A stretch of DNA of 48,417 nt from Fusobacterium perfoetens (GTDB lineage Bacteria; Fusobacteriota; Fusobacteriia; Fusobacteriales; Fusobacteriaceae). Where the stretch lies: NCBI RefSeq assembly GCF_021531475.1, contig NZ_JADYTX010000014.1, positions 1 to 48,417 on the forward strand, in the 5' to 3' direction. Below are positions 30,378 through 32,494 of this stretch, piece after piece. The notes under the pieces were generated by a model, which saw only the letters and a list, made by a program, of their open reading frames with translations, had not been told where the DNA came from and did not search any database. The stretch's first letter is position 1. Each line of letters opens with the position of its first letter. Both the position numbers and the translations under genes were made by a program.

Positions 30378-32357
30378 TTATTTGCTCCCAAGTCTTCCAA
30401 AATGCCTTTCAATATCAGTAAGTGACATCTTAAGAAGTATAGGTCTACCGTGAGGACAAGTATATTCCTCTATCTCAAATAATTTTTTTAGCAAAATCTC
30501 CATCTCATCAAATGTAAGTTTTTGATTTGCTTTTATAGCTCCCTTACAAGAAGACATTATAATACTCTCTTCCAAAAGAGTATTTTTTATCTTAGAGTTT
30601 TTCAAATCCTCTATTATATTTTTCATCAAATCTTCTATACTACAAGAGATTTTAAAATTTGGTATCCCTCTTATAAGGATATCATTTTTATCAAAAAAAT
30701 CAACCTCAAATCCAAATTTTTTTAAAATATCTATATTTTCCTCTATTAATTCTCTCTCTTTATTGGAAATTTTAAACTTTATAGGCACTAGCAACTGTTG
30801 AGTAGATATCTCTTTATTATCATACATCTTTTTATATTTTTCATATAAAATTCTTTCATGGATTATATGTTGGTCATAAATCTCTAGATTTTCATCTCTT
30901 TCCACCAAAATATATGTATTAGCCAGTTGTCCTATTATCTTGTAATTTTCTCTTTTTGGATTTTTTTCTTTTGGTTTATCCTTAGAAAAATCCTCATATT
31001 TTTTTAACTTCTCATCACTACTCTCTAGTTTATCAGTTTTTTCGTTATTTGCAAAGGATTTTTTTATATTTTTTTCTTTTTCCTTAAAAAAACTATTAAT
31101 TTTCAAAAGTTCACTATCTTTTGAAAAATTTTTCTCCTCTTCTTTTTTAATCTCTTTTATTTCTTCTATTTTTTTATCTTCTTTTTTCTCGTCTTCCAAG
31201 ATTTCAAAAGTTTTCTGAGGCTCTCTCACTTGAAAATCTAAATCTTCAAATCTATTTTTTTCCTTTTTATTATCCAAAATTTCTTCATTTTCTGGTATAT
31301 CAAAAGAAATTTTCTCTGTTTTTAAAGTATCTTTTTCAAAACTTTTGACCTCTAATCTTTTTTCCTCTTTTGGTTTTATAACTGGAGCGATAAAATCCTC
31401 ATCTCCAAAAAGTTTTTTATTAACCTCATCATACACAAGATTATAGATATATGACTCGTCTGAAAATTTAACTATTTTTTTAGTTGGATGAACATTTACA
31501 TCTACATCTTTTGGGTCAATCTCCAGAAAAATCACTGCAAAAGGGTATCTCCCTTTCATAAGTTTTGTATAATATCCATCTATAAGTGCATTTTCTATAA
31601 TTTGAGATTTTACAGGTCTACCATTTATAAAAATAAATATAAAATCTTTATTTGAACGATTAAGAGAGATATTTCCCAGATACCCAAGTGGAAAAGATAC
31701 GATATTTTCTAGGGTATTTTTTCCAAAAATCTCAAGGATAGTATTTTTTATCCCATTCCCACTAGTTTTTAAAATCTCTTTATCATCATTTAAAAGAGTT
31801 ATTGAAATATTAGGGTTTGCCAAAGCCTCCACAAGAACTGTATCTTTTATAGCTCTAAACTCTGTTGTTTCTTTTCTTAAAAATTTTAATCTTGCAGGAG
31901 TGTTAAAAAATAGATCCTTAACCTCTATCTCTGTTCCAATCCCCTTAGCAATCTCTTGAATATTTGTTATTTTTCCACCAGATACTGAAAGAGTAGTCCC
32001 TATCTCACTTTCTTTATCTTTTGAACTTATTTTTAATTTTGAAACAGCTCCTATTGATGAAAGTGCCTCTCCTCTAAATCCATAGGTCATAATGTTAAAA
32101 AGGTCTTCTTTTGTAGAAATTTTACTTGTGGCGTGACGTTCTACACACATCAAAAGATCTTCCTTTGACATTCCTATTCCGTTATCTGTAATTTTTACAT
32201 ATCTATTATTTTGTTTAACATTTATTATAATCTTTGTACTTTTTGCATCTATTGAGTTTTCCAAAAGCTCTTTTATCATATTGGCTGGTTTTTCTACAAC
32301 CTCTCCAGCAGCTATCATATTGGAAACTTTTTCGTCTAAAATATTTATAGTTTTTAT
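30378..32357 (-). CDS. mutL: DNA mismatch repair protein MutL, apparent AUA start
   Basis: GHKL ATPase of the mismatch repair system. From 32357 the frame reads IKTINILDEKVSNMIAAGEVVEKP, which matches the invariant MutL N-terminus. DNGIGM, RHATSK and YGFRGEAL follow, and the C-terminal dimerisation domain ends with CPHGRPILLKMS. The first standard start codon is the ATG at 32318, but that would delete about 13 conserved residues and has no ribosome binding site. A perfect AGGAGG (about 32365-32370) lies 7 nt before an in-frame ATA at 32357 (an ATT at 32360 is 4 nt away). No ATG, GTG or TTG occurs between it and the upstream stop. I therefore annotate the ATA start. The linker (about residues 320-480) is Lys/Glu-rich. 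The C-terminal endonuclease motif DQHxxxERxxYE is only partial (DQHIIHERILYE is present). Confidence 0.93.
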   Translation of the reverse strand: MKTINILDEKVSNMIAAGEVVEKPANMIKELLENSIDAKSTKIIINVKQNNRYVKITDNGIGMSKEDLLMCVERHATSKISTKEDLFNIMTYGFRGEALSSIGAVSKLKISSKDKESEIGTTLSVSGGKITNIQEIAKGIGTEIEVKDLFFNTPARLKFLRKETTEFRAIKDTVLVEALANPNISITLLNDDKEILKTSGNGIKNTILEIFGKNTLENIVSFPLGYLGNISLNRSNKDFIFIFINGRPVKSQIIENALIDGYYTKLMKGRYPFAVIFLEIDPKDVDVNVHPTKKIVKFSDESYIYNLVYDEVNKKLFGDEDFIAPVIKPKEEKRLEVKSFEKDTLKTEKISFDIPENEEILDNKKEKNRFEDLDFQVREPQKTFEILEDEKKEDKKIEEIKEIKKEEEKNFSKDSELLKINSFFKEKEKNIKKSFANNEKTDKLESSDEKLKKYEDFSKDKPKEKNPKRENYKIIGQLANTYILVERDENLEIYDQHIIHERILYEKYKKMYDNKEISTQQLLVPIKFKISNKERELIEENIDILKKFGFEVDFFDKNDILIRGIPNFKISCSIEDLMKNIIEDLKNSKIKNTLLEESIIMSSCKGAIKANQKLTFDEMEILLKKLFEIEEYTCPHGRPILLKMSLTDIERHFGRLGSK

Positions 32358-32370
32358 AATTATACCTCCT
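32355..32370 (-). promoter_or_regulatory. Ribosome binding site that decides the mutL start
   Basis: Minus strand AGGAGGT followed by ATAATT and then ATA (32357-32355) with a 7-nt gap from GGAGG. The nearest in-frame alternatives (ATA 32363, ATT 32360) are closer to the site. There is no usual start codon in this part of the frame. Confidence 0.75.
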
Positions 32371-32494
32371 ATAAAAATTATAGTGATAACAAATTATACT
32401 TCATATTAGAAAATTTTTCTATATTATTTTTTAAATTTTCTGAAAAGTATGTTATAATATTTAAAAATTAAAAAATTATTTGGGAGAAAAATTT

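Follow-up and report, generated by a model that had tools for sequence, protein, structure and literature searches.

A probable AUA/AUU start codon for mutL in Fusobacterium perfoetens and three sister species

AUA and AUU initiate translation through the initiator tRNA at lowered efficiency, and initiation factor 3 (IF3) discriminates against both. To our knowledge, only a few bacterial genes are documented to start naturally at AUA or AUU. Among those of Staphylococcus aureus, ccpN (AUA), cvfC1 (AUU), and citZ (AUA) give approximately 10-30% of the output of an AUG reporter; AUA is also the start codon of infC there (PMC13009471). The sigR gene of Streptomyces begins at GTC and is repressed by IF3 (PMC5472188). 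Near-cognate starts are thus already known; what is new here is mutL as the gene, and no AUU or AUA start for mutL was found in the literature that we searched.

The mutL locus of Fusobacterium perfoetens shares with infC of E. coli and S. aureus an AUH start that stands behind a strong Shine-Dalgarno (SD) sequence and is conserved across species. However, infC encodes the discriminating factor itself and its loop is autoregulatory, whereas mutL would be a target only, and the odd start of infC is widespread while that of mutL is limited to four species of the family. Staphylococcal ccpN and cvfC1 likewise combine a conserved AUH start, a strong SD, a chromosomal gene, and expected attenuation (PMC13009471), but their starts were mapped by ribosome profiling and tested with reporters. 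They also differ in having an extended SD, compared with AGGAGGU at mutL, and ccpN encodes a repressor where MutL is a repair enzyme. The E. coli pcnB gene (AUU) is, as summarized in a later paper, an enzyme gene kept at low expression by that start, although it is another gene in another lineage and was experimentally tested (Binns and Masters 2002, cited in PMC13009471). Streptomyces sigR resembles mutL in its near-cognate, conserved, and clade-restricted start, and differs in the codon (GTC), in encoding a sigma factor, and in that repression by IF3 was demonstrated there (PMC5472188).

The mutL start region

The window is the whole stretch of F. perfoetens DNA that was analysed (48,417 nucleotides), and positions are counted from its first letter. 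The gene and the elements around its start are as follows.

30378..32357, minus strand: mutL coding sequence, 659 residues counted from the ATA, with its stop at 30378
32355..32357, minus strand: most likely mutL start codon, ATA, homologous to ATG or TTG in 55 family genomes and to ATA, ATT, and ATT in three sister species
32365..32370, minus strand: Shine-Dalgarno AGGAGG, 7 nt before the ATA; AGGAGGT pairs with the anti-SD over 7 nt
32358..32360, minus strand: in-frame ATT, an alternative and less likely start, 4 nt after AGGAGG
32316..32318, minus strand: first in-frame ATG, a conserved internal Met (codon 14) and not the start; ATG in all seven congeners, whichever start codon they have

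The product scored 504 bits against the MutL family profile TIGR00585 (cut-off 180) and matched the Pfam domains MutL_C (PF08676), DNA_mis_repair (PF01119), and HATPase_c_3 (PF13589), so that the ATPase and C-terminal dimerisation domains accompany the family match. A by-eye reading found a putative endonuclease motif DQHA(X)2E(X)4E in the form DQHIIHERILYE, with I in place of A. The alignment to TIGR00585 begins at profile position 1 for the long protein, compared with position 12 for the version that starts at ATG 32318.

ATG 32318 is the first start codon of the frame under translation table 11. The frame is open 5' of it as far as a TAA near 32395, encodes the MutL N-terminal INILDEKVSN there, and contains ATA, ATT, and ATC as its only start-like codons. 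In minus-strand order, AGGAGG (32370-32365) is followed by 7 nt, the ATA (32357-32355), and then AAA ACT ATA AAT ATT TTA GAC GAA AAA GTT TCC AAT before the ATG at 32318. From 30 nt upstream of the ATA through codon 13 of mutL, ATG, GTG, and TTG are absent in every frame. The start of the conserved frame therefore lacks AUG, GUG, and UUG. The SD is strong and, at 7 nt, lies inside the 5-9 nt range, and the AUH identity is kept between species. The initiator tRNA of this genome has a CAU anticodon and the usual GGG/CCC anticodon stem.

These readings bear out what the initial annotation had claimed of the site, namely that the conserved MutL N-terminus is encoded in frame 5' of the first ATG, that AGGAGG sits exactly 7 nt before an ATA, and that no usual start is available. 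It had allowed AUU as well as AUA; the AUA stands by virtue of the family register described below, whereas the AUU at 32360-32358 is the less likely start, being closely spaced to the SD, replaced by AAA in sister species, and out of register with the start codon of the family.

Two further elements were predicted upstream of the start.

32393..32421, minus strand: predicted mutL promoter, TAGAAA (32421-32416), 17 nt, TATAAT (32398-32393), 10/12 in a consensus scan
32358..32387, minus strand: predicted mutL 5' leader of approximately 30 nt, with transcription presumed to start 6-7 nt past the -10 box

The number of promoter-like sites in the consensus scan was not clearly above that in shuffled sequences. 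The upstream alignment contains a block at the predicted promoter, ATGAAGTATAATTT, that is identical in F. perfoetens, G004, G003, G001, and G006, and a leader of about 30 nt is suggested because TATAAT and TAGAAA fall in this block conserved across five species. An upstream ORF from the ATG in the block was discarded; that ATG lies inside the promoter as predicted, immediately 5' of the -10 box, and is thus unlikely to be transcribed. A structured leader was also rejected: a hairpin with the SD in its loop was predicted in three of the four AUH species and was absent in G004, fold energies in the four were not better than those of shuffled leaders (z -0.65, +0.49, -1.02, -1.36), and no Rfam match to the leader was found. 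The leader (32358-32387) and mutL codons 3-8 are nearly invariant in the four AUH species. Short complementary motifs (CTATAA, TTATAG, CTATAAA) occur in the leader and first codons, with predicted folds that are not significant.

Distribution and history of the start codon

All seven genomes of the genus sample have mutL, as do 59 of the 61 in the family sample, and the start codon could be read in all 59. Within the genus, the homologous codon is ATA in F. perfoetens and G004, ATT in G003 and G001, and ATG in G006, G005, and G002. Across the family, a gap-free common position holds 33 ATG, 22 TTG, and 4 ATA/ATT codons, with ATG or TTG at exactly this position in 55 of the 55 other readable genes. 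The register is unambiguous because in every case the start is the sixth codon ahead of the N-terminal Leu-Asp/Glu-Glu, and this fixed register is why ATA 32357 was chosen over the in-frame ATT at 32360. AGGAGG lies 7-8 nt upstream in all four AUH-start species. As judged from these alignments, initiation at AUA is supported as the only reading that fits the conserved N-terminus, the distance to the SD, and the register that 58 relatives share exactly. The comparison with sister species that the initial annotation had proposed thus returned ATA, ATT, and ATT in the sisters versus ATG in all three congeneric outgroups, and by this sequence comparison the AUH start is a clade-restricted property common to four species.

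More widely in the family, TTG and ATG starts cluster by clade (loci L014-L038, L076-L102), and start identity has changed several times. Two mutL frames carry internal stops, several in one and one TAA in the other (G033:C1:2128522-2130431 and G021:C1:191876-193827); these may be broken genes, natural mutators, or sequence errors.

In a maximum-likelihood tree built from 32 MutL proteins, the four AUH-start species formed a monophyletic group (support 100/100), within which the ATA pair had support of 96/94 and the ATT pair 100/98. On this tree the AUH start counts as a single evolutionary event and not as several independent ones, and the simplest history would be that AUG was lost once and that ATA and ATT were later interchanged. 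Pairwise dS of mutL within the clade is 0.31-1.08 and dN/dS is 0.09-0.16, which indicates purifying selection and therefore a gene that is not decaying. Relaxed selection on mutL was rejected, as dN/dS in the clade is as low as outside it (0.11-0.20 among ATG-start congeners).

The rarity of such starts was evaluated in 708 kb of the F. perfoetens genome (approximately 35%), covering 665 ORFs of at least 90 codons, and in 400 kb of G001. The former yielded about four ORFs with ATA or ATT behind a strong SD and without a better canonical start (mutL, infC, and two Mu-like prophage portal genes), while in G001 mutL was the sole convincing AUH case flagged. Because an in-frame GTG lies inside its SD, infC was picked up in the initial form of the scan only. 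It starts with ATT behind a strong SD in all seven congeners, in line with the known rule for this gene, and serves as an internal positive control; the analogy to infC drawn in the initial annotation thus holds within these same genomes. An odd start was also looked for in mutS, which starts with ATG. The two portal genes (PF06074 + PF04233; genome G000, L107:17804 on the minus strand and L134:11066 on the plus strand) are divergent from one another, and in both an ATA follows AGGAGG at 8-9 nt; three codons upstream of this ATA, an in-frame GTG overlaps the SD. AUA starts in these phage genes are possible from the sequence, if ambiguous.

Alternative readings

A sequencing or assembly error at a true ATG is a general possibility for which a single substitution would be enough. 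It can practically be dismissed because the four AUH species form one fully supported clade: three other species' assemblies in that clade have ATA, ATT, and ATT at the same codon, which is as far as sequence can go in answering the initial annotation's concern that the codon is really ATG, and the surrounding ORF is intact. We consider it very unlikely that translation starts at ATG 32318, to give MutL without its first 13 residues, even though this is the first canonical codon and the one that table-11 gene finders call. No SD lies within range of it, the matches being of 4-5 nt only (GAAA/AAAGG) and the best of them, GAAA, at 11 nt, whereas the strong AGGAGG is correctly placed for the upstream start; the same codon is also present, as an internal Met, in species whose mutL begins at an ATG farther upstream. 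Codons 4-15 encode the same amino acids in the four AUH species while the Asp, Ser, and Lys codons differ synonymously, and because of this pattern across the 13 upstream codons we argue that the stretch 5' of ATG 32318 is translated. Initiation there, the other outcome that the initial annotation had set against its own reading, would thus drop the conserved N-terminus and proceed without a ribosome-binding site. Gene finders restricted to ATG, GTG, and TTG would shorten MutL in these four species.

Two other readings accept the AUH start and differ in what lies behind it. If start selection were relaxed throughout the clade by an altered IF3 or initiator tRNA, mutL would be one of many AUH genes, and infC with its ATT and the two portal genes that may start with ATA could be counted among them. 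We regard this as highly improbable, given that the ATT of infC is common to congeners with an ATG mutL, that only about four candidates emerged from 665 ORFs, and that IF3 shows no striking change specific to the clade, while the initiator tRNA keeps its CAU anticodon. An AUA/AUU start that is used but tolerated as nearly neutral, without a regulatory role, contests only the regulatory half of our interpretation and is a serious possibility, if not the one we favor. There was one origin only, few copies of MutL may suffice, and several lineages of the family use the weaker TTG. G is also rare at third positions (6-9% at four-fold sites of these mutL genes), so the lack of reversion to ATG is by itself weak evidence for selection of a poor start. 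Against neutrality, AUH has been kept through dS of about 1, with ATA and ATT exchanged and never ATG, GTG, or TTG, the leader and SD are well conserved, and ATG, TTG, or GTG is retained at nearly every other gene of these genomes.

Proposed mechanism and its consequences

The best explanation, to which we give a probability of roughly three in four, is that mutL is translated from AUA or AUU with fMet in the four species, at reduced output and subject to discrimination by IF3. The AGGAGGU SD, about 6-7 nt upstream, would position the 30S subunit at the AUA or AUU, where the ordinary CAU initiator tRNA would pair with two of the three bases, so that MutL presumably begins with fMet. IF3 would discriminate against this codon and hold MutL output to a fraction of the AUG level, and output would rise at low IF3 or under relaxed initiation fidelity, in parallel to infC. 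The codon, its SD, the lack of other starts, the single-clade origin, the conservation as non-AUG, the integrity of the gene, and the AUU of infC are all read from the DNA itself. From our analysis, the start probably keeps MutL scarce and sensitive to IF3; an effect on mutation rate is something we infer at one further remove.

It has been reported that the mutation rate of E. coli falls at higher mutL dosage and that MutL is limiting in stationary phase, as these studies are summarized elsewhere (Galan 2007, Harris 1997, cited in PMC10973407). E. coli studies differ on which mismatch-repair protein is limiting (PMC10973407). The dosage of MutL is thus plausibly consequential. Whether mutation rate is tied to initiation fidelity in these species is a more doubtful matter: MutL synthesis would have to track free IF3, so that the capacity for mismatch repair varies with growth state or with the level of IF3, and we hold this to be conceivable but rather unlikely. 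If true, it would amount to a translational mutability switch that arose once through the loss of AUG and has been kept since. With the level of a mismatch-repair gene set by a near-cognate start, a single codon would suffice to test cleanly whether the supply of mutations can be tuned via initiation fidelity.
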